From a virus: DNA of 36,605 bases. The stretch lies in IMG/VR virus record IMGVR_UViG_3300047335_000057, positions 1 to 36,605 of that record; one strand, given 5' to 3'. Of the stretch, positions 4,684-29,072 are shown in pieces. The notes under the pieces were generated by a model. It made no database searches. It had not been told where the DNA came from and saw nothing but the letters and a program-made list of their open reading frames with translations. Position 1 is the first letter of the stretch. Each line of letters begins with the position of its first letter. The translations under genes and the position numbers were made by a program.

Positions 4684-4852
4684 AAGGCCGCAGTTTATTT
4701 CAAGAGGTTTCAGAACCTTTAAGGATTGTTTGGAGTTCCATGAACAACTGCAATACCCTGAAGACTGGAACATCGTTGAGTTGGTTGAAGATTTGATAGA
4801 CAAGCCACAAGCAATAGCTTATTATTTGGAGCCAAAGTATGGAAATCGTTAA
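4676..4852 (+). CDS. 58-residue hypothetical protein in head operon
   Basis: A 58-codon ORF from ATG 4676 to TAA 4852, fully coupled at both ends: it overlaps the preceding stop by 8 bp and the following co-chaperonin gene by 14 bp. It fills what would otherwise be a 155-bp gap in a genome that has almost no gaps, which supports it being real. The protein is acidic and aromatic (FKDCLEFHEQLQ, VELVEDLIDK) and probably helical. There is no recognisable domain. A reasonable AAGAGG-type purine stretch lies about 10 bases before the ATG. Confidence 0.6.
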   Translation: MTKRPQFISRGFRTFKDCLEFHEQLQYPEDWNIVELVEDLIDKPQAIAYYLEPKYGNR

Positions 4853-5159
4853 CAAGTCTGGGTTGAAGCCAAAGGGTCATGCGGTGCTGGTGCAGCCTTA
4901 TGAGCCGGAATTGAAAGGGACTCTGATCCAAATCCCTGACCACGTGAAACAGAATCTTCAGACCCTGGAGAATCGAGTGATTGTGGTGGAGGCAGGACCG
5001 GAGGCCTGGATCGAGGAACGAGTCCCGCGGGCGAAGCCAGGGGATAAGGTTCTGGTTACGAAGTACGCAGGGTTTGCCGCCACCGGGACGGCGGACGGCC
5101 AGCCCTACCGCCTGGTAAATGACCGGGATATCTTCTGCCAGATCGGAGTCGAAGCGTGA
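4839..5159 (+). CDS. GroES-like co-chaperonin (Cpn10 fold)
   Basis: 106 residues, the normal length of GroES. The GroES-type layout is visible: an N-terminal strand PKGHAVLVQP, a mobile-loop segment (residues 24-33, ELKGTLIQIP) carrying an aliphatic L-I triplet where GroES has the GroEL-contacting IVL, then VIVVEAGP, KPGDKVLVTKYAG and a final NDRDIFCQI that matches the GroES C-terminal D-I strand. Such proteins cap host GroEL to fold phage capsid proteins, as phage T4 gp31 does. Its place between portal and scaffold, coupled to both sides (GTGA overlap with the scaffold gene), supports a role in head protein folding. Cpn10 assignment is from motif reading only. Confidence 0.8.
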   Translation: MEIVNKSGLKPKGHAVLVQPYEPELKGTLIQIPDHVKQNLQTLENRVIVVEAGPEAWIEERVPRAKPGDKVLVTKYAGFAATGTADGQPYRLVNDRDIFCQIGVEA

Positions 5160-9453: not shown

Positions 9454-10178
9454 TGGCTATCACGACAGATCCGCTTTATTACAACGCTTACGGGATTATT
9501 ACTGATGCGATGCTGAATGTCGGGAAGCTTCGGACCGGAGGCACGCCCGATCCGGCGACCCTCAAAGGGTATATGAGGAAGCTTAACAAGCTCATTAATT
9601 ATTACCAGACCCAGGGATTAAAATTATGGCTCTTGGAGGATACTTCGGTTACGTTGACCGCCTTGCAAGCACTCTACTCCTTTGGCCCAACGGGAACTAC
9701 GGTGATGGTCAAGCCTTTGAGAGTGGCCTATGCCTATTATCTCGATATTTACGGGTCGCAAAGACCTCTGATCCCAATGGCAATGACGGATTACAAGATG
9801 CTTTCGCAGGTGAGCCAGCCAGGGGCACTGAATAGTTACTATGTTGACAAGCAACAAGTCAACCTCGACGTTTATTTTTGGAACACTCCAGACACCTTTA
9901 CCGCCTCTAACGGCTCGGCTCATTTAATGCTTTGTAATCAGGTCAGTAACTTCATCAATCTCACCGATACGATGAACTTTCCCATCGAGTGGGGGTTGTT
10001 GCTGGAATGGGGCCTGGCCGACCAGATATCAACTGGCCAGCCTGCCTTTATTGTTAATCGCGCGAAGATGATGGAGGCCCAATACCGAGAGGCTCTGGAA
10101 GACTGGGACGTCGAAGACGCGCCGACGAATTTCACTCCTGATCCGCGGAACATGCAGCAACAGGGCAAATTTCGATGA
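9453..10178 (+). CDS. P22 gp4-like head completion / tail adaptor protein
   Basis: 241 residues. The N-terminal helical half (ALN.G.L..GGTPDPATLKGYMRKLNKLINYYQTQGLKLWLLED) followed by a strand pattern ALYSFGPTGTTVMVKPLRV, then YYVDKQQVNLDVYFWNTP and FPIEWGLLLEWGLADQI is the recognisable layout of the P22 gp4 tail accessory family that binds below the portal ring. It is directly upstream of the gp10-like gene, the canonical order. A 4-bp overlap couples it with that gene. Confidence 0.8.
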   Translation: MAITTDPLYYNAYGIITDAMLNVGKLRTGGTPDPATLKGYMRKLNKLINYYQTQGLKLWLLEDTSVTLTALQALYSFGPTGTTVMVKPLRVAYAYYLDIYGSQRPLIPMAMTDYKMLSQVSQPGALNSYYVDKQQVNLDVYFWNTPDTFTASNGSAHLMLCNQVSNFINLTDTMNFPIEWGLLLEWGLADQISTGQPAFIVNRAKMMEAQYREALEDWDVEDAPTNFTPDPRNMQQQGKFR

Positions 10179-11686
10179 TGCCTGAGCAACCACAACCTCA
10201 GCAAGCTCGGACAGCAAATGAGCCGAAAAGGTTGCCACTGGTCACCCAACCCGAGAATCGTTCGACCTCTTATTTAAAGGATTCGAGACTGGTTAATTGT
10301 TATGCAGAGAAAACCTCTGATGGTTACTGGATTGAGAAGCGGCCAGGAACTGCGGTTTATAGCCCCTCGACGAACTTCTTTGCCGCCGGCGGCCAGGGAA
10401 TGTTTTTGTGGGTTCAGCAGGCAGACCCAAACACTGTCAGCCCCTTGAACACAATCACCTTAATCATCTCAGGCAACCATGTTTATAAGCTGGCTTTTAC
10501 CCAAACGCCTTCTGCCCATATCGTGGTGGATAGCCTAGGCACCATTACTCCGCCCACAGTTAGAAGTGGTCTTTGCCGTTTCTGCACGGTTCCTAACACC
10601 AATCCTTATCTTGTGTTTTCGTGTGGGTGGGGACAGCCGACTTACTGGATCCAAGCATCTAGTACTTCGCCTACTGCAATAACCGATTCTAACTTCCCTT
10701 CGATTACCGTTCCTGGAATAGTTTATCTCGACGGCACGACCTACGTGATGGATAATAAAAGCAATATCTGGGGAAGCGCTAATCTAAACGACCCGACGGT
10801 TTGGAGTGCACTGAATGTTATCCAAGCCGAGAATGAGCCAGACCAGCCAGTCTTCTTGGCCAAGCAATTAACCTACGTGGTGGCTATAAAGTCTACCACA
10901 ACCCAGTTTTTCTACGACGCCGGAAATTCCACAGGCTCGCCATTAAGCCCGGTTCCAGGGGCGTTGATGACCTACGGGTGTCTCTCCGCCGACACGGTTC
11001 AAGAAATCGATGGGCTACTCCTTTGGGTGACTTCATCCAAAACTCAAGCCTCCCAGGTTATACTGCTCGAGGCCCTTCAACCTCGAATCGTCTCCACCCC
11101 GGCGATTGATAGGTTTATGGACCTCGGGCAGTTTGCTTCTTACTTGTCAGTCTCATTTAAACACATGGGGCATAGGCTTTATTTGCTTAGCAACCTGACC
11201 AACAACATTAGTTTAGTCTATGATATTGATCAAAAGCTTTGGTATCAGTGGACTGATGTAAACGGGAATTGCTTTCCTTATATTGCTGTAACCAATGACC
11301 CGACCGGGGTCAGGATAGTTCAGCAGTATGTTAGTGGGCAGGTTAGCCTCTTTGATGCGGATTATGTTTATCCGACTGATAGCGGGGCTGTAGTCCCAGT
11401 AGATATTTATACACCAAATTTTGATGCAGGAGTGGATAGGATCAAATACCTGAGCCAGATGCGATTTAATGCCGATCAGGTTGGAGGGAGTAACCTTTTA
11501 GTCCGAGCGTCGGATGATGATTATCAAACCTGGTCGGCTTATCGGTATGTTGATCTGGGGCAGCAAACCCCGATCCTCAATGACGAAGGGTCGTTTTACC
11601 GCCGAGCTTATAACTTTCGTCAGGAAGCCGCCTTCCCGTTTAGAATTAAATCAGTCGACCTTCAAATGGACATAGGAACTTTATGA
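10175..11686 (+). CDS. P22 gp10-like packaged-DNA stabilisation protein
   Basis: 503 residues, close to the size of P22 gp10. It starts with the family-typical ENRSTSYLKDSRLVNCYAEKT...Y.IEKRPGT segment and continues as a repetitive beta-propeller-like chain (VYLDGTTYVMD, LYLLSNLTNNISLVYD, KLWYQWTD). In P22, gp10 hexamers seal the tail hub after packaging and retain DNA. The ATG at 10175 overlaps the gp4-like gene by 4 bp; a second Met follows immediately. Downstream coupling (ATGA) leads into small tail genes. Confidence 0.85.
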   Translation: MMPEQPQPQQARTANEPKRLPLVTQPENRSTSYLKDSRLVNCYAEKTSDGYWIEKRPGTAVYSPSTNFFAAGGQGMFLWVQQADPNTVSPLNTITLIISGNHVYKLAFTQTPSAHIVVDSLGTITPPTVRSGLCRFCTVPNTNPYLVFSCGWGQPTYWIQASSTSPTAITDSNFPSITVPGIVYLDGTTYVMDNKSNIWGSANLNDPTVWSALNVIQAENEPDQPVFLAKQLTYVVAIKSTTTQFFYDAGNSTGSPLSPVPGALMTYGCLSADTVQEIDGLLLWVTSSKTQASQVILLEALQPRIVSTPAIDRFMDLGQFASYLSVSFKHMGHRLYLLSNLTNNISLVYDIDQKLWYQWTDVNGNCFPYIAVTNDPTGVRIVQQYVSGQVSLFDADYVYPTDSGAVVPVDIYTPNFDAGVDRIKYLSQMRFNADQVGGSNLLVRASDDDYQTWSAYRYVDLGQQTPILNDEGSFYRRAYNFRQEAAFPFRIKSVDLQMDIGTL

Positions 11687-11877
11687 GCGGAATCCCACTT
11701 AGCAAGTTTACCCAGATCGTAGATGAAGAGGGGAGACCTACACAGTACTTTATTAACTTTCTCTTAAACCAGGGTTATAGTGGGACTGTTACTACAGCTA
11801 AATTAACCAATACTGGAGCTAACGGCTCGATGACCTTTGCCGGCGGAGTTCTAGTCCGAATGGTGGCTGCTACATGA
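11683..11877 (+). CDS. Small tail-associated protein
   Basis: 64 residues. It has a pattern common in short phage tail proteins: PLSKFTQIVDEEGRPTQYFINFLLNQ followed by TTAKLTNTGANGSMTFAGGVL and a short C-terminus. It overlaps both neighbours by 4 bp. It may be a needle or fibre-attachment component, since no separate gp26-like needle gene is obvious, but this is speculation from position. Confidence 0.7.
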   Translation: MSGIPLSKFTQIVDEEGRPTQYFINFLLNQGYSGTVTTAKLTNTGANGSMTFAGGVLVRMVAAT

Positions 11878-12353
11878 ACCTCGTGGAAATTCCTGAATGG
11901 GATGGTTTAGCGCCTTATCTGAACTGGGAGGATAAGGTGGCCTATCTGGCCTGGATGCTTTCCAAACTTCCTCAGGCCGAGACGCCGGTTAAGGAACTTT
12001 GGGAAAACGGGTTTTACTTTAGGGTGATGACAATTCCCAAGGGGACATTGTTTATAGGCCGCCGGCATCTCTTGGGACATGAGGTTACGTTAACCAAGGG
12101 ATCTTGCATTCATATCCAACCTGACGGGCAAAGGTATCTCATCAAGGCCCCGTTTACGATGATCAGTAACCCAGGATTTTATGTCGTTTGCTATGCACTG
12201 GAAGATATGGTCGCGTATACTGCGCATCCGGAAGGGGTTACAGAGGCCGAGGCTTTTGAGGATTCCAAGGTCATGCTTGATCGCGGCCGGCAGATTGAAT
12301 CAAAGCTTTCCCATGATAAGGTAATGGCTAAACTGGCTGTAGGTGAAGTATGA
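11874..12353 (+). CDS. Cupin-like virion-operon protein
   Basis: 159 residues. The central part (about 50-125) reads as a small cupin barrel: an FRVMTIPKGTLFIGRRHLLGHEVTLTKGSCIHIQPDG stretch with a glycine-turn pattern and a later YVVCYALEDMVAYTAHPEG containing a His. This resembles a recurring phage protein family downstream of the gp10-like gene. Only some of the usual cupin metal ligands (His 67, His 70, Glu 71 or His 117) are visible, so metal binding is uncertain. The gene is 4-bp coupled on both sides. Confidence 0.65.
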   Translation: MNLVEIPEWDGLAPYLNWEDKVAYLAWMLSKLPQAETPVKELWENGFYFRVMTIPKGTLFIGRRHLLGHEVTLTKGSCIHIQPDGQRYLIKAPFTMISNPGFYVVCYALEDMVAYTAHPEGVTEAEAFEDSKVMLDRGRQIESKLSHDKVMAKLAVGEV

Positions 12354-12940
12354 GTGGATTGATTACTGCGTCGGTTGTTGGGGCCGTTGGGATCGGGGCA
12401 GGGCTTTACGAGTCCTCCCAACAACAGGGAATTGAAAACCAGGCTCTAGGAATTGCCAGTTCCCAGAACTCCAGACAGGCTTATTCGTTTCAGCAACTTC
12501 AGAGTTTGATCAGCAACCCAGGGAGTTTTTTCTCGTCCCCAGTCTACCAGGCCGCCTTTGGGCAGGGAACTCAGGCGGTTACGCGACAAGAAGCCTCGGG
12601 AGGGTTTTTGAACTCAGGGAACGAGGCGACAGCGTTGCAGGCTTATGGGCAATCGTTTGGGGCATCACAGTTGTTGAGCCAAGAACAATTGCTGGCCTCG
12701 ATGTCAGGGACTTCAGCGAATCCGGCGAGTGCTTTGGGAACTGCGTCGGGGGCAGGAGCTACTTCGTTTAATCAACTGGGGACGTTGTTAGCTGCCTTGG
12801 GACAGAGTGGGTCGATGTTTAATGGGGGTTATAGTGGAGTAGCAGGTATGGATACAGGTAGTTATGATGCTTCACTTAGTTCAATGGGTACGAGTTTAAG
12901 TAACTCTGTCCCTCTCGTAACACCTACAGGACCGTGGTGA
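12350..12940 (+). CDS. Putative ejection (internal virion) protein
   Basis: 196 residues. It has a hydrophobic Gly/Ala-rich N-terminus (GLITASVVGAVGIGAGLY, membrane-like) and then a Gln/Ser/Gly/Ala-rich helical body (NSRQAYSFQQLQSLISNPGSFFSSPVYQAAF, RQEASGGFLNSGNEATALQAYGQSF). This composition is typical of small DNA-ejection proteins that form a membrane channel in podoviruses. It lies upstream of two larger internal proteins. Assignment rests on composition and location. Confidence 0.7.
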   Translation: MSGLITASVVGAVGIGAGLYESSQQQGIENQALGIASSQNSRQAYSFQQLQSLISNPGSFFSSPVYQAAFGQGTQAVTRQEASGGFLNSGNEATALQAYGQSFGASQLLSQEQLLASMSGTSANPASALGTASGAGATSFNQLGTLLAALGQSGSMFNGGYSGVAGMDTGSYDASLSSMGTSLSNSVPLVTPTGPW

Positions 12941-14058
12941 TGACTGACCCAGGCTGGGGTGTAGCAAGTGGGTGGCTGAGCGGGACTCAGGAACAGCAGG
13001 CTATTGCACTTAATAACATCAAGTTGCAGGAAGGTCCTATCACGCTGGAGAGCGAGAAGCTGGCGCTGGAGACACAGAAGCAACAGGTTGCAATGCATAA
13101 CAAACTGTTGCAGACTCTTAATTCCCAGCCCCAAAGTGGAGCCGACCCGATCGGGTCTGCCGCCGAGACTTTCTTCCGAGTTGGCCAGGCTCAGCTTGAG
13201 AGCGGCCTGCCCGAGGAGGCGATGAAGACTATAGCAACGGGCCAGGAGATGCTTGATCGTCAGTCTCAGGTTGCCTATCGCGCCTTCGAGGCGGCGGATA
13301 AACAGGCTCAGTATGTGGAACAAATGGTGGCGGGGGTGGCTGATGCTCCGAACCAGGAACAGGCTTACAACCAGGCTGTGGCGATTGCCAAGATGCACTT
13401 CGGGGAGAAGTCGATTAACTTGCCGCCGTGGGACCCAGTTAAAGGGCCGCAGGTTCTGGAGGCTTATAAACGGGCCGCGGAGGCTCACCGAACCGAAGCG
13501 CAGAAACAACTTGACAGGGCAAAAATTGCGAAGGAAAACGCTGATGCGGAATATGCTAGGCAAAATACTGAACGAGCCAAGGCAACTACTCGGCTAGATA
13601 ACGACCGGGCTGAGGCGATTGAGAAGAATTCTGGGAAGGGTGGTTCAGGGATGCCGAAGTCTTCAGTGGTTACTGCAATCACAAATAAACTTAAAACCAT
13701 GTACCCGGATCAGTTTGAGGACTCTTCAGGATATAGGGATCTTGCTATGCCTATGGCGCTGGAAGTCCAGCGGATGATGGACAAGGAAAAGAAAAATCTG
13801 CCAGATGCTATTAATGCTGTGATTAGGTCGGATCAGCTTCACGGGAGACTGGGTGGGTTGAAGCCTGCAAGGCCGGGAGAGCGGCAGACCAATCCTGCCG
13901 CCATCCCCCGCACAGCGGATGGAAAGGTAGATGTTTCACAGATGAAAGACGGGGGCTGGTATAAAACCCCTACGGGCGAGGCGGGATACTATGATGCTGC
14001 TAAAGGGGGACTAGTAGTACCTGATGCTCGAGATGATGATGAAGAGGATGATGAATAA
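12940..14058 (+). CDS. Putative coiled-coil internal virion protein
   Basis: About 372 residues. I chose ATG 12940, in a TGATG overlap with the previous stop and 8 bases after a CAGGA site; in-frame GTGs at 12934 and 12937 are less well placed. The N-terminal two thirds is a long alpha-helical, Gln/Glu/Ala-rich coiled coil (KLALETQKQQVAMHNKLLQ, EAAEAHRTEAQKQLDRAKIAKENA). The C-terminal part is Gly/Pro-rich and ends in a run of Asp/Glu. It overlaps the 1460-residue protein by 1 bp. A DNA-ejection component is inferred. Confidence 0.7.
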   Translation: MTDPGWGVASGWLSGTQEQQAIALNNIKLQEGPITLESEKLALETQKQQVAMHNKLLQTLNSQPQSGADPIGSAAETFFRVGQAQLESGLPEEAMKTIATGQEMLDRQSQVAYRAFEAADKQAQYVEQMVAGVADAPNQEQAYNQAVAIAKMHFGEKSINLPPWDPVKGPQVLEAYKRAAEAHRTEAQKQLDRAKIAKENADAEYARQNTERAKATTRLDNDRAEAIEKNSGKGGSGMPKSSVVTAITNKLKTMYPDQFEDSSGYRDLAMPMALEVQRMMDKEKKNLPDAINAVIRSDQLHGRLGGLKPARPGERQTNPAAIPRTADGKVDVSQMKDGGWYKTPTGEAGYYDAAKGGLVVPDARDDDEEDDE

Positions 14059-17000
14059 TGGCTGATACTGTTTATAGCCTAGAAGAGCTAAGTGCCCAGC
14101 CGGCGGCTAAACCTAAAGCCACTGGTAAGGTTATACCTTTAGCCTCCCTAGGCGAGGTTGCTACGGCTAAGCCAGTCTCTAAAGACCCTACCCCCTTTAG
14201 TCGCTTTGTGGATAAGTCAGTAGACGCAGTTAAGCGCGCGGGTAGCGTTATTAACGAAGACCCCTCGGCGGCTATTGAAGGCGGGTTTAATGCTGCGGTA
14301 AAGGGGATTGCCTCGATTGCGCAGTTAGCTGTCAGCGGTGTCGGGGCGTTGGCTAAGACTATTTATACACGCGACAACGTTGATGGATTTGTTAAAACTA
14401 AAGAAGCAATTGATAAGCACATTAACTTGATTAACCAGGCTCCCGCAGACAAACAAGAGGAGGCGATGCAGAACCTCTTGGGGATTATACCTTCGGCGGT
14501 TGAAGCGGTTGGGGATACTGTTTATGATAAAACAGGGTCTGCGTTAGCAGGTGCCGGGGCACAAGCGTTAACCACTCTGTTAACCTTCAATCCTGAAATT
14601 GCAGGGAAGGTGATGAAGGGGGCTGGTGAGTGGACGAAGGGAAAGCCAGATAGCAAACTAGGCGGTGCGTTTGATGAACTGGCTGCGACAGATAGTGAGG
14701 CGGCTACCAAGGTAGCTAACCATGTTAATCAAGTTGATCCGGTTACTGCGAAGGTTCTGCATAAGCGGATTCAAAAGTACATCGATGCTTCGGAGGAAGA
14801 ACTCAACCTCATAGGCAAGAATGCCGCCGACGCAGCGATAGAGGAGATCTCGGGTGATTACGAGAAAGTTCGCGCTAAAGCTAATCTGCCTGGTTATCTT
14901 GGTTCCGGCGCTGAGCGTGGTATGGGTAGTGGAGAATCTGGGACCTCCAAGCGAAGTCGTGTACAGGCTGGTGCGTCAGGCATGCTTGATGCTGAAACAG
15001 ACCCTGGGTTGGGGGTAGGAGAGGGGAAGGGCGGGAGGATTAAAACGCAGAGGATGGCGGCGGACCGCCCAACCTTCAGTCACTTCGACAATATTGACGA
15101 AGGGATGTTTGACAAGTATGCTGATTATGATGCGAAGGGAGGAAGTGTTAGGTCGAAGCAACTTTTAGAACAGATGCTTGAGCATGCCAAGTCTCCAACC
15201 GAAACTGGATCGTTGCAGCGACAACTGCTTAGCCGCCTTCACAGACTAGTACCAAACATCGAGATTCACTTTACAGATGACTTGGTGGACTCCCAAGGTG
15301 AAAGATTTGACGATGCTGCCGGGATCTACGACGGGCATGCAAATAACATTAAGGTTAGTTTAGCCAAGGGTGCTGACACTCGTGCAATTCTTCATGAACT
15401 AACTCATGCCGCGACGACCAGGTTTATTTACTTCAACCCTGATCATCCGCTGGTTATGGAGCTAGAAAAGCTTCGGCTTACTGCAAAGTCAGTATTTAAT
15501 AAATCGGGTGAAACCTATAGCATTAATAGCCATTATGGGCTTACTGACGTTCATGAGTTCGTGGCTGAAGCCATGACAAGTCGACAGTTTCAGCAATTTC
15601 TAGGCAGGGTTAAACTATTAAACAAAGAAACTCTGATGTCGAGGTTTGTAGATACTGTTAAAAAAGTTTTAGGGTATAAGCCTGGAGATAACACCAGGTT
15701 TTTGGAAAGGGTGATTAGGACTTCGGAAGACTTGATGGAGGAGGCAGGAGAAGCTCGGCGGCAAGGAAAAACCATTCCAGGCCGCCGGCCAGTCGAAACT
15801 GCACCGATTAAGGTCAATCCTGAACAAGCCAGTTCAACCATTCGGGAGACGGTTAAACAAGCCCTAGGAACAATCGAGGAGGCCTCGAAGGACTCTACCA
15901 AAGCTGGTGAGGATAATGTTCTTTACTTCAACAACGGAATCCCTGTAACCAGGCAGGCTATTGAAGGAGCTTTCAAAGCCGTCGGTGAAGGCCTCCGAGC
16001 CATTCCAGGAATGAAGATTGCTGAAGGCAAACTCGAAGGTCTTTACTCAACCTTCATCGAGCACTTTAATCCTGAAGCCAAGGGACCTCAGGCTCGGGAG
16101 GCCGGCGCGGCGATTGCCAGGAACTTTTTTGTCAAGGCGGCAAAGGAGAATGAAGTCTGGGAACAGGGAAAGACTCGTCGGGAATACTGGCTCAAAATGG
16201 GAGAGCAGGCTGGGATTGACTTCATCAATGGAATGGAACGTGGGGTGAAGTTTAAGAATGAAACGTGGAACAAGGCTCAAGCCCATTACACCCAATGGGC
16301 CGCGAAGATTTATCGCCAGGATATGGAAACCTGGGCGAAGGCTGGCCGCGATGCTCCTTATGATCCTTTAGATCACTACGTTCCTCATATGTTTGAGGAT
16401 ACTAGAGGGGTAGCCAAATGGATGAAGCTGCCAGAAAATGCCAGGAAGTGGGGCGATCCGAGGTTTATTAAAGAGCGAGGGTTTGATCTCTATACCGAAG
16501 CCCTCAAACACGGCTTCACGCCGAAGTTCAAGAACCCTGAGGAGTTGATGCAGGCGAGACAGATAGCCTCCGACACCGCGAAGTTTCGGTCAGAGTTATT
16601 AATGGACTTGAGGCAACGGGGGCTGGCAAAAGAGGCTAAGCCTGGGGAAGAGTTAGCCCCGCATGGGTATCACACGAACTCTTATCGGGCCCCTACCGGC
16701 CAGCGTTACTGGGTGAACGAAGAACTCGGACCCTTGATGTATAACGTCTTCGACTCAAAGTCTCTCTGGGAAAACCAGCGGTTGCCAGGACAGACTTACC
16801 GCGGGTTCATGGAGTTGAAGAACAAAGTGATTCCACTCAAACTAGCCGCCAGTCTATTTCACCCCATGCACGTTCTGCATATTGATGCCGCTGCGGAGTT
16901 GACGGCGGCAACGAAGGAAATGCTAGCGGGGCAAGGAAATGTGCTGAAACGGACTGGGGACTTTATGTTGAAGTTAGCCACGACGTTCCCTTATTCTCCA

Positions 17001-18440
17001 GGCTCATGGTACAAATCAGGTTGGAAGAACTGGCGAGCCGGCGAGCCTCTCTTAAGAGTCTTTCAGGGCAAACTTCCCTTCGACAAACTTAGTGATTCTG
17101 ACAAAGAGGCCTGGGCTACTTTGGCTGAGAGTGGGTTGATTCCTACCAGACCTCGCGAAGAAATGACTAACGATATTCAACGCTGGAATGACGCTCTAGT
17201 CAAACGCTCGGTGACGGCAGTCTGGCATGCCCCTTGGGCCGCCTTAGCTTTTATGAGCAAATGGACCTTTGGAACCTGGATTCCCTCTTTGAAGATTGCG
17301 GCGGTATTGCGTGACGCGAAGGCGATTCGCGAAACCAATCCTGGAATGTCTGCGAAGGATCGACAGATTGCTTTGAGAGACGCGGCACGGAAGGTCGAGG
17401 CTCGCTATGGCGAAATGAATCGAAACTCGCAATTCATCAATAAACTATTCCAGGACACAATGATCGCGACTAATCTGTCGTGGGGCTGGAATGCAGGATT
17501 ATTGGATCAGTATGTGGGCGGGACGATTGACTTGGCGAGAGGAGTTGCTGGCAAGGGGTCAATTAAGAGTGGACAGTTTGACCGGCCAATCATGGCGGCT
17601 TACTATATCACTTCGGCCCTGGTGCTTGGAGGGTTGATTACGAAGTTGCTTGGTGGCCAGGACCCACAGAGTTTGATTGACTATACACACCCTTTATCAG
17701 GTGACAAGGATAAATATGGCAAGCCAGTCCGCCTGAACACTATGTGGTATACGAGGGAATTTGAAGGTCTCTACAAACACATGCAGCAGGAAGGGGTTGT
17801 GCCTGGACTGGAAGAGTTTGTGCTGAACAAAGGCTCGGGAATTTTTGAAATGGCAAAGACTGGGTTGAATGGAGTTAATACTCTTGGTGAAGAGATCATG
17901 GACCCAAACGCTCCCTTGCATAAAAGAATCGAACAGACTTTGCTTTATGAGTTCGCTGATATTAACCCCATAGCGATTGAAGCGATAAACCGTTCGACTG
18001 GTAATAGATACAAGGCGGCCGCCGAGGCCGTCATTGGCTTCACCCCGGCCGGCCGTTACATCAGTCAAACTGTCACCGAAGGCAAAATCGAAAATGCGTA
18101 TAACAAGTTTGTCAGGCCAACAGAGAAGCCGTTTGAAGCAGTCCAGCGGTCCAAGGATTTCGGTCACTTGGCACAGTTATATGAGAAGGGCGGCCCAGCT
18201 TATGACCAGGCACTTGATCAAGCCATTAAGGCGTATCAGATGACACCGAAGGACGTAGGGAAGTTAGAACGCTCCTTTCGCAAGGAGGATAGCTATGATC
18301 CCTCCCTGGCTATGTTTAAGAGACTTGACTGGACTACGCAGAAAACGATCCTTGACCATATGACTCCTACGGAGCGCGAGAAGTACCTTCCGGTTTCCAA
18401 CAAAGAACACCTTCGGCGGCATTACGAGGCCACTCCGTGA
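14058..18440 (+). CDS. 1460-residue internal virion protein with HELTH zincin domain
   Basis: The largest gene. Region by region: a charged/Ala-rich N-terminus with hydrophobic helices (about 75-160), a flexible Gly/Ser/Lys-rich stretch (270-320), and then a zinc-peptidase-like domain (about 360-540) with HELTH at residues 446-450 and a downstream DVHEFVAEAM (498-507) whose Glu 500 or Glu 504 could be the third ligand. This is followed by ~900 mostly helical residues and a hydrophobic segment near MAAYYITSALVLGGLITKLL (about 1178-1197). The size, position after other ejection proteins and mix of domains match phage large ejected or polyvalent proteins. It probably enters the host with the DNA and may cut a cell-envelope or cytoplasmic target. 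The specific substrate is unknown. It ends in a GTGA overlap with the PurD-like gene. Confidence 0.8.
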   Translation: MADTVYSLEELSAQPAAKPKATGKVIPLASLGEVATAKPVSKDPTPFSRFVDKSVDAVKRAGSVINEDPSAAIEGGFNAAVKGIASIAQLAVSGVGALAKTIYTRDNVDGFVKTKEAIDKHINLINQAPADKQEEAMQNLLGIIPSAVEAVGDTVYDKTGSALAGAGAQALTTLLTFNPEIAGKVMKGAGEWTKGKPDSKLGGAFDELAATDSEAATKVANHVNQVDPVTAKVLHKRIQKYIDASEEELNLIGKNAADAAIEEISGDYEKVRAKANLPGYLGSGAERGMGSGESGTSKRSRVQAGASGMLDAETDPGLGVGEGKGGRIKTQRMAADRPTFSHFDNIDEGMFDKYADYDAKGGSVRSKQLLEQMLEHAKSPTETGSLQRQLLSRLHRLVPNIEIHFTDDLVDSQGERFDDAAGIYDGHANNIKVSLAKGADTRAILHELTHAATTRFIYFNPDHPLVMELEKLRLTAKSVFNKSGETYSINSHYGLTDVHEFVAEAMTSRQFQQFLGRVKLLNKETLMSRFVDTVKKVLGYKPGDNTRFLERVIRTSEDLMEEAGEARRQGKTIPGRRPVETAPIKVNPEQASSTIRETVKQALGTIEEASKDSTKAGEDNVLYFNNGIPVTRQAIEGAFKAVGEGLRAIPGMKIAEGKLEGLYSTFIEHFNPEAKGPQAREAGAAIARNFFVKAAKENEVWEQGKTRREYWLKMGEQAGIDFINGMERGVKFKNETWNKAQAHYTQWAAKIYRQDMETWAKAGRDAPYDPLDHYVPHMFEDTRGVAKWMKLPENARKWGDPRFIKERGFDLYTEALKHGFTPKFKNPEELMQARQIASDTAKFRSELLMDLRQRGLAKEAKPGEELAPHGYHTNSYRAPTGQRYWVNEELGPLMYNVFDSKSLWENQRLPGQTYRGFMELKNKVIPLKLAASLFHPMHVLHIDAAAELTAATKEMLAGQGNVLKRTGDFMLKLATTFPYSPGSWYKSGWKNWRAGEPLLRVFQGKLPFDKLSDSDKEAWATLAESGLIPTRPREEMTNDIQRWNDALVKRSVTAVWHAPWAALAFMSKWTFGTWIPSLKIAAVLRDAKAIRETNPGMSAKDRQIALRDAARKVEARYGEMNRNSQFINKLFQDTMIATNLSWGWNAGLLDQYVGGTIDLARGVAGKGSIKSGQFDRPIMAAYYITSALVLGGLITKLLGGQDPQSLIDYTHPLSGDKDKYGKPVRLNTMWYTREFEGLYKHMQQEGVVPGLEEFVLNKGSGIFEMAKTGLNGVNTLGEEIMDPNAPLHKRIEQTLLYEFADINPIAIEAINRSTGNRYKAAAEAVIGFTPAGRYISQTVTEGKIENAYNKFVRPTEKPFEAVQRSKDFGHLAQLYEKGGPAYDQALDQAIKAYQMTPKDVGKLERSFRKEDSYDPSLAMFKRLDWTTQKTILDHMTPTEREKYLPVSNKEHLRRHYEATP

Positions 18441-19762
18441 GAGTTCTCATAATGGATCTTGAAGGTATTGGCACCGGGATCGACCTTGCCCTCCGTGCCC
18501 AAGACGCCGACCACGAGGTACGTTACTGGATGCCCAGACGTAACTCTGGCGAGCCGCGACCATATGGCGACGGCATGCTGGAGAAACCCGATGAATGGGA
18601 ACCTTCAATGGATTGGTGTGATATTGTTGTACTTACTGCTAATAATAAGTATGGCACTGCGCTGGCACCGTATTTCGGCCAAGGGTATCCGATTTTCGGC
18701 GCGAATGCGAAGGGAGCTGAACTCGAGCTGGACCGGGGAAAAGGTCAGGAGGTTTTGGCTGCTAACGGTGTTCGGACGATTCCTTATGAAGTGGTTAAAA
18801 CGGTTGAAGAAGGTATTGCGCTGATTAAGGAGACGGGAAAGGCCTATGCGATGAAACCCTGGGGAGGGACGGAGGATTGTGCGTTGACCTATGTCAGCCG
18901 CGCTCCGGACGACGGTATTTTTACCCTGGATAAATGGAAACGTGAAGGCCTCTTTAAGGGTCAACTCATGATGCAGGAGAAAATCGATGGCATCGAAATG
19001 GGAATTGCTGGATGGTTTGGCCCAGGGGGATGGGCGATCCCGCTTGAGGAAAGCTTCGAACACAAGAAGTTCCTCTGTGACGATCTTGGAGCGAATACCG
19101 GAGAAATGGGGACAGTTATTAGACACGTCAAACGTTCAAAGTTATTCGATGACGTGCTTGCCCCCTGCACTGACTACCTGCATTCTATCAACTACGTGGG
19201 GGACTGTTCAATTAACTGTATGATTGATGGTAAGGGACGGGCCTGGCCGATGGAGTTTACCACGCGACTCGGATGGCCTGATTTCTGCATCCGCCAATCA
19301 GTCATTCAAGGCGATCCTATTCAATGGATGAAGGACCTTTTAGATGGGAAAGATACCCAAGTTTGTAGTCCTCGTATTGCTGTCGGCGTTGTCATGGCTC
19401 ATGGTGATTTTCCTCATTACCACGATCAGCCTGAAAAGTGGTCTGATTATCCTGTGTATGGGGTTAGTGATTCTAATTGTGAGAACGTACACTGGCAACA
19501 GGTGAAACTCGGCAAAGGGTTTCTGTGGGCTGGAGGGAAGCTGGTAAGGCCTCAGATGGTGCTCACCGCCGGGGCGTATGTGGGAGTGGTGTCTGGGGTG
19601 GGGCGGACCGTTACGGCGGCCACGGAGGCCGCTTATGATGTTGCATGGGGGGTTAAATGGCCCTCAAACATCGTGTTTCGGACCGACATCGGGAAACGCT
19701 TAGAGGACCAACTGCCAAAGTTACAGAAGCACGGCTACGCCGTGAATATGAACTATGGGTAA
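18437..19762 (+). CDS. Divergent PurD-like (GAR synthetase) ATP-grasp protein
   Basis: 441 residues, the length of phosphoribosylamine-glycine ligase, which ligates glycine to phosphoribosylamine in purine synthesis. Whole-length correspondence is visible: a linker FGANAKGAELELDRGKGQEVLAANG, the nucleotide-binding region, GANTGEMG (218-225; family GPNTGGMG), PMEFTTRLGWPDF (271-283; family EFNCRFGDPE), then the C-terminal domain VGVVMAHGDFP (316-326), SGVGRTV (386-392) and RTDIGKR (415-421). Differences: the N-terminal GGREHA motif of PurD is absent (DLEGIGTGIDLA instead), the Mg-binding Asn of EFN is Thr 275, and FGDPE is LGWPD. A different substrate or weak ATP-grasp activity is therefore likely. 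It is coupled to the ejection protein (GTGA) and followed by a zinc-ribbon gene. Confidence 0.85.
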   Translation: MRVLIMDLEGIGTGIDLALRAQDADHEVRYWMPRRNSGEPRPYGDGMLEKPDEWEPSMDWCDIVVLTANNKYGTALAPYFGQGYPIFGANAKGAELELDRGKGQEVLAANGVRTIPYEVVKTVEEGIALIKETGKAYAMKPWGGTEDCALTYVSRAPDDGIFTLDKWKREGLFKGQLMMQEKIDGIEMGIAGWFGPGGWAIPLEESFEHKKFLCDDLGANTGEMGTVIRHVKRSKLFDDVLAPCTDYLHSINYVGDCSINCMIDGKGRAWPMEFTTRLGWPDFCIRQSVIQGDPIQWMKDLLDGKDTQVCSPRIAVGVVMAHGDFPHYHDQPEKWSDYPVYGVSDSNCENVHWQQVKLGKGFLWAGGKLVRPQMVLTAGAYVGVVSGVGRTVTAATEAAYDVAWGVKWPSNIVFRTDIGKRLEDQLPKLQKHGYAVNMNYG

Positions 19763-20210: not shown

Positions 20211-22202
20211 ATGACCTTTACACCGCAGAATTTTGTCAACCAAGTCGGCCCGGCGGTTTCGGCTGTATGGCTTAACGGGGTTGATGTGACGGTTAACTTT
20301 GTGCTGAACGGTGCGCAGACTGTGGCGGCGGCACAGGCGGCTTTAGGGATTACGCCGATAACTTTGCCTCTGGGGATAGCTGAAGGTGGGACAGGGGAGA
20401 CTGCTGGCACGGCGGCATTACAGAACCTAGGGGCCAACCAAGCCTATATTGGAGGACAACTTTATCCGCGGACCGCCGCGGAGGACGCCGCCTTGATTAC
20501 ACCAACTAACGATGCTTATCCGACTCTCAACATCCTTCGTTATGGAGGAGATAATACTGGGACGACGGATAACACGACAGCTTTTAATGCCTTGTTTGCC
20601 GTTCTCTTGCAACTCAATGGAGGAAGCGCAGTTATTCCTCCGGGAACTTATAACCTTAATACTTCGATCACTACGACTCTGATTCCTTCGTCAGGAGCAA
20701 GTGCTTTTACCCACGGGGTTAATCTCTATGCTTATGGGGCTCTGGTTAATTTTACCGGATCAGGCTTTGCCTTTGATTTTACCTCGGTTGAAGGCGGAAG
20801 TGCTTACCAGTATCAACCTAACCTCTCAATCTTCGGGATGAACATTGGGCTGACGAGTGCCGCCTCGGGCGGGATTCGGCAGAAGGATATGTGTAGTAGT
20901 CGTTACTATGATGTCTTTGTGTTGAGCACGAGCCAGACCCTGATCACGGCGGCAGGATTCACGCAGACTAACGTCACGCAATATTCTGAGAACAACCATT
21001 ATGTTGGCTGCGGAGTGGTGACTTGCACAACTGGGATACAGTTTATTGAGACTCCTGGGGCGCAACAGTCGATGGCGCGAACCCTGGTGCGAGACTTTTT
21101 TGGCGCCGGGATAGGGAGTTACTGGTTTGATATCGGCGCCGGCGTTGATATGTATGACTCGGTGTTTGAAAACATAAAGGGAAACTTTGGAAGCATTGCT
21201 TATTTTGGAGTCGGGTCCTCAAGCGGCGGGGCTAATATGGGTGGGACTACGATCTACCCGATACTTGCCGAGTGGAATGGGAATCCTAACTCCTATGCGC
21301 AATGTATCGTCCGTCTTCGGGACTACCCGAATACTTCAGGAACGGATCTTCGTCCGACACTTTATGAGCCCTGTGCGACGTCCCAAATCACTCTGAGTGG
21401 AACGATTCCTATCTGGGCGGGAGGAAGCTCTAATACTTCGCAAACAGTATTGCCTGGGCCGGAGAGCATTGAAACCCAGGGTCTGGGGATGGCGGTTCCC
21501 TTTAACAGTACTTACGGCCAGTCTAGTCTGTTTGAGACAGGACCTAACGGGCAGGTTTATGCCGTCCGCAACGCTGCGACAGCCAACAACGCTGGATTTG
21601 TTTACGCTGCCTTAACAGGGTTTGCGAGTAATATTGTTACTCGCTGGACGATGGTCAGATCAGGCTACCATGCTACGATCATGGTTTACGACGCGCTTGC
21701 AGGGACCTCGACCTCTACTGGAATGACTCTGATAATAGCGAATCCAGAGTTCATGCCTTATGGGGCACCAGGGTATACGATTCAGGTTCCTTGCATTGTG
21801 GAGAACAATGGAAATTCTACGACGCCGGCAATAGCATCCTTTGCCCCCGCGAGTACTTATGCTTCGATAGCCTTTACAGGCAACCCGCCAGTCGAGGCAG
21901 TAAGCGGGACCTTGAGTGCTAACTGGACTGATCCTGACGGGATCGTGGCAAGCGGCTCAGGAGTCTACCTTGGAGTTTTTAACGACGGCGAGGTTAGACC
22001 GGTTACGTTGACTGTAGGAGCCGCCACGTGTACGTGGAGTTCCCCTCTAACCGCCGCACAAACCAGCACCGCTTTAACCATCCAATGCGTTGTGGTGACC
22101 TTTTCGGTGGCCACAGCTTTCGCGACTTACAGCACTACCGGGTTTACTGGGACTAAGGGAATTCCAGTTGGTACCTGCATTACTTATCCCTTGGTTTACT
22201 AG
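20211..22202 (+). CDS. Tail fibre/tailspike with pectate-lyase-like beta-helix
   Basis: 663 residues. The N-terminal part contains the fibre signature GIAEGGTGETAGTAALQNLG (about 55-75). From about residue 100 there is the classic entry of a right-handed beta-helix (ILRYGGDNTGTTDNTTAFNALFAVL then GGSAVIPPGTYNLNTSI), followed by repetitive strand-turn sequence with many Asn/Thr/Ser/Gly. The last ~150 residues are another beta-rich domain. It is likely the receptor-binding or polysaccharide-degrading tail protein. Catalytic residues of such spikes are not predictable by eye. It starts directly after the preceding stop and ends with TAG just before an AGGAGG site. Confidence 0.8.
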   Translation: MTFTPQNFVNQVGPAVSAVWLNGVDVTVNFVLNGAQTVAAAQAALGITPITLPLGIAEGGTGETAGTAALQNLGANQAYIGGQLYPRTAAEDAALITPTNDAYPTLNILRYGGDNTGTTDNTTAFNALFAVLLQLNGGSAVIPPGTYNLNTSITTTLIPSSGASAFTHGVNLYAYGALVNFTGSGFAFDFTSVEGGSAYQYQPNLSIFGMNIGLTSAASGGIRQKDMCSSRYYDVFVLSTSQTLITAAGFTQTNVTQYSENNHYVGCGVVTCTTGIQFIETPGAQQSMARTLVRDFFGAGIGSYWFDIGAGVDMYDSVFENIKGNFGSIAYFGVGSSSGGANMGGTTIYPILAEWNGNPNSYAQCIVRLRDYPNTSGTDLRPTLYEPCATSQITLSGTIPIWAGGSSNTSQTVLPGPESIETQGLGMAVPFNSTYGQSSLFETGPNGQVYAVRNAATANNAGFVYAALTGFASNIVTRWTMVRSGYHATIMVYDALAGTSTSTGMTLIIANPEFMPYGAPGYTIQVPCIVENNGNSTTPAIASFAPASTYASIAFTGNPPVEAVSGTLSANWTDPDGIVASGSGVYLGVFNDGEVRPVTLTVGAATCTWSSPLTAAQTSTALTIQCVVVTFSVATAFATYSTTGFTGTKGIPVGTCITYPLVY

Positions 22203-25278: not shown

Positions 25279-27759
25279 TCATTCACAGTCACCCCACGAA
25301 ACAGCCGAGGATTTAATCCTAAACGGGATGACGAGGGGGTCGTCATAAGGGATACTAATGCGCGATACTCGAAGAATTTCATTGAGACAACTCGTTGCAG
25401 ACGCCGTTGGCACCTGACCTGCGAGGGAGTCATGGACCTGGAGGAGGACTTGAGCTTCCGGTACTTTGTCATAAATTTCCATCCATATTTTGTTGATGAC
25501 TACAGAGACGGTGGACTGGGGAATCCAGGCTATGGCCTCGGGGATGATAGAATCAACTCGATCGAAGATGTACCATCGGTAGCCGAAGCGATTTTCAATG
25601 AACCGGTGGCGGGTGACTTGATCCTTAACTCGATCTTGCCATTTTTTGATACCAGGGTGGGCGCCAAACCAAAGGCGTTGGGCCACCTCGACCTCCTTGA
25701 CAGTTCGCCCAGTATGAGCAGCCATTGTTCGAGGCTGGCCGCCATAGTTGGTTCCATGGACGAAGACTTTGGCGAACTCACGTTTGATTTTTCTTGGGCC
25801 GCGATGGTAGGGGTAGCGAGGGTGGCCCTCGACGAGTTCCTCGAGAGGGGGAGGCTCCTTGCCGTCGAGGGCATAGACGTTCATTAGGTGAAGGTCAACC
25901 CCCATTGAGATGGCGGCCCGGAGCATCTGGTCGCCGGACTCCGCAATCACGACCTGCAGATCGGCACGATCAAGGTCTCCGTCAAAGAATGTATACCCTG
26001 GGTCAGGGATAAACATACTTCTAATGTTGGGATAAGAGTAGGGGTCACCAAGCCCTGCAGTAGGTCCTCTAGATGCGGCCTTTCCCAGTGATTTAGACTT
26101 TTCTGAAGGAACATTCTGCAAGTTTGTTCCGCTTCCGAAAGCGTTCTCTGAAGAACTAAGTCGATAAGTTTTTGGCGCAGATTTTCCTGAAGCAGAACCT
26201 CCGATATTGTAGGCTGTTCGCATTCTTCCGTCTTCGTCGAGTTCCGCTCGGAGAAAGTTTGACAGAAAAATTCCCATAGTGCGGATGTCTGCGATGGCGT
26301 TAATGAGAGGCTTAAGCAAAGGCTCTCGAATTGAAATCTGCTGGAGAGCGTCATCGTTGAGGGTAGCACGAGAGGGGACTCCTTTTGTCGCGCGGGTCAT
26401 GATAGGAGGCTGGGCTAGATCTTCGTAGAACAGCGAATGCATTTGCTTCGGCGAAGCTGGGTTGAGGGGATGGCCAAGAAGATCCAGAATGAACTGTTGC
26501 CGACGCTGAATTTCGTGGGTAACTTCTTCAGTAAGTGCTGCACGTTTTTCAACGTCGATTCGTACTCCTCGCTGCATGGTTTGCAGTACGGGCCAGAAGA
26601 GTCGTTGCTGAAATCTATGGACGGAGGCGAGATTGAGCTTGGTGACGAGTTCATTTTCTACTCTTCCTACTTCATCGGTGTAGACACAATCAAGGCAGTT
26701 GTAATGCCAGAGGGACTCCTCGCCGAGCTTTTCGTCCCAATTCTTGCCTTCATCCTTCCAATATACATAATATTTGCAGTACATTGACGCTTGAAATGCC
26801 AGGCTCTTTGGTAAATCGGAAAAGATCGAATGCTGAGATATCATACAATCCTGCACCACATGAGGAACAAAATGCCAGTGCCGCCATGTGTACTGACTGT
26901 CGTACAAGATATTTTGTCCCACAACTTCTGCATTCTCGTGCGTGAGGATCTTCGCGAGCCACCATATTATTTCTCCTTCGTGATCAGCCGACCAGTATTC
27001 ACGGAATCCGTGGTGGATGAAAGGGATGCAGATTGCGTCTTCGAGGGACCAGGAGAGTCCTGCGCAGGCGATGTGGCCGCCGCGGGTTTCAAGGTCGAAG
27101 GAGAGGCGACAGCGGCTGGTTGCAAGGCGACTGAGTATCCCTTGTAGGGATTGTAAAGCCTGTCCGAAATTCGGGCGGATGATGAAACGGTAGTTTGGCT
27201 TGGGATAGGGTCGGCCGTCGCGGAACTGGGCGGCTCGGCGGAGGTCGTTGACGACAACAGCGCGATCGGACCACTGGCGGAGGACGGCGGCAGGGTGGAG
27301 AGTGGGGATTACTTTGGTAGCTCCAAAATCTCCATCCGTAAATAGCATCGAACCTCGCCACTTGGCCACCCCGGTAATCCCTGTAAGAGTCCATAGAGCT
27401 GTATTGCCGAGCGCAACGATAACATTAGGTTTGACCAGCGAGATTTCTTTAGCGAGAAGTCGGCCTCCTTCAGCCACAAAAGGGTGTACATTTTTGTCTC
27501 TGAATCGTACGAAGTTCGGTAGAACATCTTTTTTAGCCTTTGGGATGAAGTGGTTTATGTCGTTGGAGGGAGGGCGGATGCGACAAACGTTAGTGACAAA
27601 ACACTCATTCCTTGTAATCCCTGCCTCGTGAAGCATCTTGTTGAGTTCTTGACCAGAGGCCCCTTGGAACGGGAGGCCTTTTTGTTCCTCCTCGTAACCA
27701 GGAGCCTCGCCGACCAATAGGATTCTTGCAGGTATAGGCCCTTCAGGACGGCAGATCAT
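25279..27759 (-). CDS. UDG-family-4-like domain fused to family A DNA polymerase
   Basis: 826 residues. Residues ~10-180 are a family 4 uracil-DNA-glycosylase-like domain: GEAPGYEEEQKGLPFQG (18-33), VTNVCRIRPP, and LHPAAVLR (154-161). The same domain is known at the start of the phage SPO1 polymerase. Residues ~215-370 are the 3'-5' exonuclease: FDLET (Asp 222, Glu 224), GQNILYD (Asn 283, Asp 287) and YNCLD (Asp 357). The polymerase has motif A DLDRADLQ (Asp 595), motif B R660-K664-Y672-G673, and motif C VHDS (Asp 777). Oddities: the steric-gate Glu is Asp 600, the HDE Glu is Ser 778, and only C3, C53 and C59 remain of possible Fe-S cysteines. It overlaps the methyltransferase gene by 4 bp. 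Confidence 0.9.
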   Translation of the reverse strand: MICRPEGPIPARILLVGEAPGYEEEQKGLPFQGASGQELNKMLHEAGITRNECFVTNVCRIRPPSNDINHFIPKAKKDVLPNFVRFRDKNVHPFVAEGGRLLAKEISLVKPNVIVALGNTALWTLTGITGVAKWRGSMLFTDGDFGATKVIPTLHPAAVLRQWSDRAVVVNDLRRAAQFRDGRPYPKPNYRFIIRPNFGQALQSLQGILSRLATSRCRLSFDLETRGGHIACAGLSWSLEDAICIPFIHHGFREYWSADHEGEIIWWLAKILTHENAEVVGQNILYDSQYTWRHWHFVPHVVQDCMISQHSIFSDLPKSLAFQASMYCKYYVYWKDEGKNWDEKLGEESLWHYNCLDCVYTDEVGRVENELVTKLNLASVHRFQQRLFWPVLQTMQRGVRIDVEKRAALTEEVTHEIQRRQQFILDLLGHPLNPASPKQMHSLFYEDLAQPPIMTRATKGVPSRATLNDDALQQISIREPLLKPLINAIADIRTMGIFLSNFLRAELDEDGRMRTAYNIGGSASGKSAPKTYRLSSSENAFGSGTNLQNVPSEKSKSLGKAASRGPTAGLGDPYSYPNIRSMFIPDPGYTFFDGDLDRADLQVVIAESGDQMLRAAISMGVDLHLMNVYALDGKEPPPLEELVEGHPRYPYHRGPRKIKREFAKVFVHGTNYGGQPRTMAAHTGRTVKEVEVAQRLWFGAHPGIKKWQDRVKDQVTRHRFIENRFGYRWYIFDRVDSIIPEAIAWIPQSTVSVVINKIWMEIYDKVPEAQVLLQVHDSLAGQVPTASATSCLNEILRVSRISIPYDDPLVIPFRIKSSAVSWGDCE

Positions 27760-29072
27760 TTTAGCTCCGCGATCCGTTTAACCGCAATCCCATAAGCCGT
27801 CGGGTCCGTCTCCACTCCTACCGCCTTAATCTTCAATCCATGAGCAGCCGGAAAGATACTTCCAGACCCAGCAAAAGGATCGAAAACAGTATCGCCAGCA
27901 CGACAAGAGCGTAGTAATAAATCCTGAAGGAGTCCGACGGGTTTCTGGGCTGCCCACCCGAGGTTCTGGTCCGAGGCATAAGTCACCACGTCCGGGGAAA
28001 GTTTGAGGACTGGCCTGTCTCCCTTTTTGGCATAGAGGCAGAGTTGGTACCGGCGATGGGGGCCGGACTGAGGCCAAGGGGCTCTCTGGGAGGTTGGGTT
28101 GTGCCACACGAGGGGGGTGCGGAAGGGGGTCCAGCCGGCGCGCGCAATGATATCGCGCAGCTCAACAAAGCGATCGATGTCACAAAAGATATAAAGGTGC
28201 GCCTGAGGTTTGGCAAGTCGGAAGGACTCGGGTGCCATAACTCCCATAAGTTTAAGCCAGCTAGGATAACTATCATCATAGGTATGACCGATTGCATTTG
28301 CTTTGCCTCCCGAGTCGTTGAAGTTCTGGGCATCGATGCCGTAGGGAGGATCGGTGAGGATTACATCGAAGCGGGAGGCCTCGCAATCCTTCATCCAATC
28401 GCGGCAGTCACAAAGGTAGAGCTGGTGAGAATGCTGGCCAAAGGTCTTGCCTACCTTCTCCCCAAGGGCGATCTGGCGTTGGGCCTCCTCCTTGCGCTTG
28501 ATGACTTTAAGTCCTTCGGATCGCGAGGAGGCCTTGGCAACATCAGGATCAGAGAGGTTGCGGGCCAGGATTAATTCCTCACGGACGGCCGCGGAAGCCG
28601 CAGCAGGATGATGATCAGGGTAGAGTTCCTTGGCAATGTCTTGGGGGAGTTGAGCCTGGGGCTTGTGAGTCTTCTCGGCTTGGAGCCGGCGCAGCTCGTA
28701 GAGTTTGCTAGTAGCCGCCGATCTATCTTGCCACGAAAGGTCGGCCCTTCGTATATTCTCCTCTAACTCGACTTCCATCGCGTCCAGCGGATCGAGGTCA
28801 TGGAGCCAGATGCAGGGGATCTGGCCTTCGGGAACCAGAGTGCCGCCGTGGGTGAAAAATCCTCCCATTGACCAGATGGTTTCGATAGCCTTGAGTCGCC
28901 GCTCGCCGGCTACCAGGATCGGGGAGCCGCCGTCCTGGGTTCGCAGAATGATTGGGTGGAGAAGCCCGATGGAGGAAATTGAATTGGCAAGTTCTAGAAG
29001 CGCTTCGGCTTCAATCTCTGTTCTTTGGCGGTTTGCCGCCACTGTTATGTCTTTGTGCCATACTACGTTCAT
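27756..29072 (-). CDS. ParB-N domain fused to DNA methyltransferase
   Basis: 438 residues. The first ~190 residues are ParB/sulfiredoxin-type: ILVAGERRLKAI (GERR at 56-59) and VELEENIRRADLSW. The rest is a beta-class amino-methyltransferase with the catalytic DPPY (241-244) before the SAM-binding DPFAGSG (398-404); it methylates adenine N6 or cytosine N4. ParB-methyltransferase fusions are known in phages, where the ParB part may act as a DNA-binding or nuclease-like module. A good AGGAG precedes ATG 29072, directly after a terminator. No matching restriction enzyme is present, so self-protection or regulation is more likely than restriction-modification. Confidence 0.88.
   Translation of the reverse strand: MNVVWHKDITVAANRQRTEIEAEALLELANSISSIGLLHPIILRTQDGGSPILVAGERRLKAIETIWSMGGFFTHGGTLVPEGQIPCIWLHDLDPLDAMEVELEENIRRADLSWQDRSAATSKLYELRRLQAEKTHKPQAQLPQDIAKELYPDHHPAAASAAVREELILARNLSDPDVAKASSRSEGLKVIKRKEEAQRQIALGEKVGKTFGQHSHQLYLCDCRDWMKDCEASRFDVILTDPPYGIDAQNFNDSGGKANAIGHTYDDSYPSWLKLMGVMAPESFRLAKPQAHLYIFCDIDRFVELRDIIARAGWTPFRTPLVWHNPTSQRAPWPQSGPHRRYQLCLYAKKGDRPVLKLSPDVVTYASDQNLGWAAQKPVGLLQDLLLRSCRAGDTVFDPFAGSGSIFPAAHGLKIKAVGVETDPTAYGIAVKRIAELK

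Follow-up and report, generated by a model that had tools for sequence, protein, structure and literature searches.

The window analyzed here is a single linear virus record from IMG/VR (IMGVR_UViG_3300047335_000057; 36,605 nucleotides) whose gene content includes a terminase, a portal, a GroES-like protein, a nozzle protein, DNA polymerase A, and a primase. A PurD-like gene, predicted to encode a C-N ligase of the ATP-grasp class (hereafter, the ligase), lies among the late genes of this phage. The features of the region are as follows:

10175..11686, plus strand: tail nozzle/head-closure-type protein (phrog_578), the anchor for the presence/absence count
12350..14058, plus strand: two smaller late proteins, of 196 and 374 aa, found ahead of the 1460-aa protein in a conserved gene order
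14058..18440, plus strand: 1460-aa late protein in the ejection-protein position, upstream neighbor of the ligase
18437..19762, plus strand: PurD-like ATP-grasp C-N ligase, 441 aa, GTG start; domains (aa): pre-ATP-grasp, ~1-98; ATP-grasp core, ~99-300; GARS-C-like, ~315-421
18854..18880, plus strand: ATP lysine K140 (equivalent to K145 of Escherichia coli PurD) and shortened Gly-rich loop (residues 140-148)
19097..19114, plus strand: ligase family signature T221-G-E223-x-G-T226 (TGGMGA in PurD)
19214..19279, plus strand: predicted metal/phosphate site N260...E273-x-T275-x-R277-x-G279-x-P281
19755..20210, plus strand: protein with a zinc-ribbon-like motif (C-x2-C...C-x2-H), downstream neighbor of the ligase
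20211..22202, plus strand: tail spike-like protein, 663 aa

The GTG start of the ligase is supported by its relatives, which share the opening M-[KR]-x-L stretch. This GTG and the TGA at the end of the 1460-aa ORF form a 4-bp overlap (GTGA, 18437-18440), and the zinc-ribbon gene begins 8 bp inside the ligase end; these two overlaps bear out the embedding and translational coupling within the late operon that were proposed in the initial annotation. The GC content of the ligase gene is the same as that of the flanks. A scan for promoters and terminators yielded a few consensus matches, none of which is used as evidence here. The 1460-aa protein is labeled 'ejection' for its position and the gene order; in a PHROGs search, this protein produced partial matches only, one of these to a virion RNA polymerase family.

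An optional cassette in the late operon

In about 90 loci, the ligase gene is found behind a large late protein, in some cases a fragment, with 1738 aa as the greatest length; the overlap with the upstream gene is exactly 4 bp in 64 of 89 loci. To test whether the ligase is a core gene, relatives of the phage were gathered by the nozzle protein, with a narrowed alignment, and presence or absence was counted in the 22 loci that extend 9 kb or more beyond the nozzle gene on its downstream side. The ligase gene is present in 12 of these and was not seen in the other 10 (one of which, L193, breaks off before the end of the long protein upstream, so that it does not count as a shown absence). Most of these ten loci have the ejection-type gene directly abutting the zinc-ribbon gene, with an overlap of a few bases in L203, L217, L221, and L228. 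Thus, the ligase gene is a neatly fitted optional cassette between the ejection-protein and the tail-anchor/adhesin genes. In the five close pairs for which dN/dS could be measured and dS is below 0.6, dN/dS ranges from 0.025 to 0.069, indicating that the cassette is under strong purifying selection while present.

A specific linkage with the zinc-ribbon neighbor did not hold: some relatives encode the zinc ribbon without the ligase and others, the ligase without the zinc ribbon. A tail-fibre-type ORF (PPIPQDKIGE...WRxWF) takes the place behind the ligase in another clade. Zinc ribbons were judged by eye, since pattern counts come out too low with His as the usual last ligand.

In related phages, another accessory slot lies between the nozzle and ejection genes, close to the former, and is occupied by GNAT, 2OG-oxygenase-like, or radical SAM proteins (L228:11737-12309, L237:6840-7373, L221:1933-3213, and L193:5658-6116). 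These are enzymes that are able to modify proteins or small molecules. No association between the ligase and GNAT was seen, with GNAT present in 13 of 62 loci with the ligase and 3 of 10 without it. In the window, a small protein (11874-12353, plus strand) that matches 'short tail fibre' PHROGs sits in the GNAT slot of the other phages, and its relative in L203 shows a weak match to a cupin domain.

The GroES-like Cpn10 protein of the window (4839-5159, plus strand) is encoded in the head gene region and is also annotated in MW202796 and QDWS535. On the minus strand, an 826-aa protein (25279-27759) combines an N-terminal uracil-DNA glycosylase domain with a family A DNA polymerase, and the product of 27756-29072 is a fusion of a ParB N-terminal domain with an N6/N4 DNA methyltransferase.

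Fold and active site of the ligase

The ligase was initially annotated as a full-length homolog of GAR synthetase, and both sequence and structure comparisons agree with this assignment. A phmmer search of the PDB with the 441-aa sequence retrieved PurD (3mjf) with an E-value of 2.5e-15, and all matches down to E = 0.0016 were PurD or GAR synthetase. The NCBIfam purD model (TIGR00877; phosphoribosylamine-glycine ligase, EC 6.3.4.13) matched the ligase with an E-value of 2.9e-19; the score, however, was 69.2 bits, against a cut-off of 288. The AlphaFold2 model of the ligase, for which 80 sequences from the window, other phages, and cellular organisms served as input, has a pLDDT of 95.6 and a pTM of 0.92. 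When this model was compared to the PDB, 13 GAR synthetase entries aligned with Z scores of 31.7-35.2 over 378-398 residues, at ~20% identity to PurD, followed by PurK and PurT with Z of at most 24.8; the modeled fold is that of GAR synthetase, far above any other ATP-grasp, and its N, A, B, and C domains follow those of the PurD structures in the PDB. Homology to PurD is thus well above chance. The C-terminal domain that the initial annotation described as persisting is present, but its GARS_C score (29.8 bits) is under the Pfam gathering threshold of 34.8, as is that of GARS_A (23.0 bits, threshold 27). A cellular relative, L113, passes both thresholds (GARS_A, 52.4 bits; GARS_C, 40.5 bits).

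Comparison with E. coli PurD shows both shared and altered residues. Apart from the whole fold and domain order (Z 32-35), the two share the equivalents of PurD K145, E194, E286, and R290 (in the ligase, the ATP lysine K140, the ribose Glu E187, the central metal Glu E273, and R277), a TGxMG loop, and an R-x-DIG motif near the C end. The changes noted at the outset are all confirmed: the GGREH motif is gone, N288 is replaced by T275, and FGDPE has become LGWPD (GDPE to G-W-P-D). In addition, Q180 replaces PurD E187 and N260 replaces G273, and the ligase is encoded outside purine operons. The GANTGEMG loop was said to persist, but G229 in the corresponding NTGGMG of PurD is replaced by an invariant Glu (E223).

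These features constitute a family signature. In all 85 full-length phage homologs, K140, Q180, E187, E208, K210, T221-G222-E223, and G225-T226 are invariant, and so are E273, T275, R277, G279, and P281; W280 is found in 82 of the 85, and N260, in 74, with Ala (9) or Ser (2) in the remainder. The same core set is invariant in the 45 cellular homologs wherever these are complete, with N260 present in 44 of 45, and a second viral scan yielded TGExGT and ExT in 80 of 80 sequences, on contigs partly shared with the first scan. Therefore, the changes are not particular to this one phage: phage and cellular homologs alike have T275, E223, and G-x-P without exception. The candidate explanation of a degenerate, dying gene was ruled out by the dN/dS values and the residue invariance.

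In alignments with the E. coli enzymes, T275 corresponds to N288 of PurD, S281 of PurT, and A240 of PurK; N260 corresponds to E267 of PurT, E226 of PurK, and E276 of AccC, whereas PurD has Gly (G273) in this position. The metal roles of these E. coli residues are established background. The cellular relative L113 has the N260-equivalent Asn exactly 12 residues before the central Glu, which is the spacing in PurT, PurK, and AccC. The ligase thus resembles PurT and PurK in having a residue other than Asn at the third metal position (Ser or Ala in these enzymes) and a side chain capable of ligating metal at the first position, 12-13 residues before the central Glu. It differs from them in that the first position is Asn (N260), not Glu, with E273 as the second, and in the fold (Z of at most 24.8 compared to 32-35 for PurD) and sequence family. 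The replacement of the PurD Asn does not suggest inactivation, given that PurT, with Ser, and PurK, with Ala, are both active. The loss of this Asn combined with the gain of a candidate ligand where other active ATP-grasps use one argues, at the level of sequence, for a metal site that is working but re-set.

Distribution and cellular relatives

Relatives of the ligase are encoded on at least 577 viral contigs, yet a PHROGs search with the ligase matched no family, and in BFVD, a viral structure library, there was no full-length close match (top TM, 0.38-0.45). With a second, divergent query, at least 573 viral contigs were matched, a set that overlaps the first. The carriers include many uncultured phages from soil and freshwater, and a scan of bacterial and archaeal genomes identified prophage copies in Burkholderiales (Glaciimonas and Paraburkholderia). 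The phage homologs are deeply divergent.

The genome scan also yielded about 45 stand-alone cellular homologs from Woeseiaceae, Patescibacteria, Micrarchaeota, and other groups. These proteins, annotated as 'phosphoribosylglycinamide synthetase C domain-containing protein' (Woeseiaceae, Patescibacteria, Micrarchaeota, Halarchaeum, and Ekhidna), share 25-30% identity with the ligase over the full length, have the same invariant set of residues, and group with the phage proteins against PurD. They differ from the phage proteins in being chromosomal or plasmid-borne, in the lack of conserved partners, and in carrying Tyr or Phe in place of W280. The scores of the cellular relatives with TIGR00877 are 84-107 bits, whereas those of the true PurD proteins in the genomes checked are 407-579 bits; a true PurD over the cut-off was found in all 10 of these genomes, 7 with the cellular paralog and 3 with a prophage copy.

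The phylogeny does not group the ligase with ordinary PurD: a branch with 100% support, which is long and gives no direction of transfer between phages and cells, parts PurD from the phage and cellular homologs. Recent acquisition of a host PurD was ruled out by the flank-like GC content, this 100% split, and the deep divergence of the phage homologs. The ligase is, accordingly, a GAR-synthetase-fold ATP-grasp protein but not PurD itself; its family stands apart from PurD as a paralogous one.

No consistent neighborhood was found for the cellular homologs in Woeseiaceae-type genomes, Patescibacteria, Halarchaeum, Sphingomonas, and Roseomonas, and therefore, the neighborhoods do not indicate the substrate. 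The neighbors in Woeseiaceae-type genomes are glg genes together with other ATP-grasps, or acyltransferases, and those in Patescibacteria are D-Ala-D-Ala ligase and radical SAM genes. In two Woeseiaceae-type genomes (L107 and L121), the PurD-like gene lies beside two other ATP-grasps and a PGM1/IQCH-type ATP-grasp, and the locus adjoins genes for glycogen synthase, a GlgC-like protein, branching enzyme, and phosphorylase.

Possible functions and comparison with known systems

The explanation that we favor, and consider fairly likely, is that the product of the gene is a C-N ligase that is active and expressed late and that represents a separate family paralogous to PurD, the gene being carried as an optional, translationally coupled cassette. 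Because no family member with a known activity was found, we infer this activity. The enzyme would be made late, by translational coupling; it would bind MgATP through K140, E187, N260, and E273, activate a carboxylate as an acyl phosphate, and then join it to an amine.

It is very improbable that this is an auxiliary metabolic gene for a true PurD, which would raise purine synthesis in the infected host. The PurD fold and ~20% identity to PurD are compatible with such a role, and viral purD/GART genes have been reported as purine genes in virome surveys of snow (PMC11097641), oceans (PMC11360552), and vents (PMC12043954). However, the 69-bit score falls short of the 288-bit purD cut-off, the GGREH, ExN, GDPE, and TGGMG motifs are all altered, invariantly, the hosts carry their own PurD, and the gene sits in a late virion operon. 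Furthermore, none of 21 phage records contains purM, purC, or purH, a result that bears on genomic linkage only; combined with the hosts' own PurD, it makes purine synthesis unlikely. The altered substrate that was proposed initially is likely, judging from the ligase's own invariant active site and the lack of purM, purC, and purH in these 21 phages; the particular substrates put forward with it (sugar amine, nucleotide, virion protein) are hypothetical candidates.

Structural exaptation, whereby the PurD fold would serve as a non-catalytic virion part, such as an ejection core or a tail adaptor, was also suggested initially and could account for the location in the late operon, with ejection and tail genes adjoining in about 90 loci. 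This appears quite unlikely, however, because the gene is optional (12 of 22 relatives), being absent in 10 of 22, most with intact virion neighbors, and because the catalytic-type residues of the ATP and metal sites are invariant across phage and cellular homologs, with low dN/dS. We also regard as unlikely, if slightly less so, a virion-packaged enzyme that is ejected with the DNA and performs ligation inside the new host at entry, in counter-defence or in nucleotide or peptide modification. The gene lies directly behind that for the ejection-type protein and overlaps it, but position alone is no proof of packaging, no ejection or packaging signal was identified, and no PADLOC model, these covering mainly defence proteins, matched it.

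For the active late ligase that we favor, a virion protein or a late-phase surface or peptide metabolite is a possible acceptor that we propose tentatively, given that the ligase sits among virion genes and that modifying enzymes occupy the neighboring slot; the accessory-slot argument is a positional one.

Phage-borne C-N ligases of the ATP-grasp class are known from other systems. Peptide-ligase cassettes with ATP-grasp, amidoligase, and GATase genes are described for phiEco32, PA11, and LUZ24-like phages (Iyer et al. 2009, as cited in PMC10580990, PMC6256558, and PMC3890496); their ligases have reportedly been proposed to modify surfaces or proteins, and the ligase of the window is similar in its class and in the kind of role proposed. 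Unlike the ligase, the ATP-grasps of such cassettes are smaller (~218 aa in QDWS535 and 291 aa in UFV-P2), have an amidoligase and a GATase as partners, and are not encoded in the late virion operon. Amidoligase_2 (PF12224) was detected in none of 21 ligase-carrying phages, whereas the positive control, QDWS535, was matched; membership of the ligase in a cassette of this type was thereby ruled out. Alcaligenes phage QDWS535 carries an ATP-grasp, GATase, amidoligase, COOH-NH2 ligase, and gamma-glutamyl cyclotransferase cassette (L176:35678-44432); it has the same late gene order, and no PurD-like gene was found in its annotation or by tblastn.

A more far-reaching and rather doubtful proposition is that phages, CPR, DPANN, and Woeseiaceae share a ligase family, readily taken for PurD, with an undescribed amide-forming reaction; encoded in an accessory slot of the virion operon, it would serve phages for the post-translational modification of their ejection or adhesin proteins. 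With an active site of its own, this PurD-like family probably makes a different amide bond from PurD. Viral 'purD' or GART genes that carry the TGExGT and E-x-T-x-R-x-G-x-P motifs should be left out when purine metabolism genes are counted. The comparison with the empty sites of ligase-less phages amounts to a natural experiment on the role of the enzyme inside the ejection operon, and a relative from the cellular branch could be expressed in order to identify the reaction.
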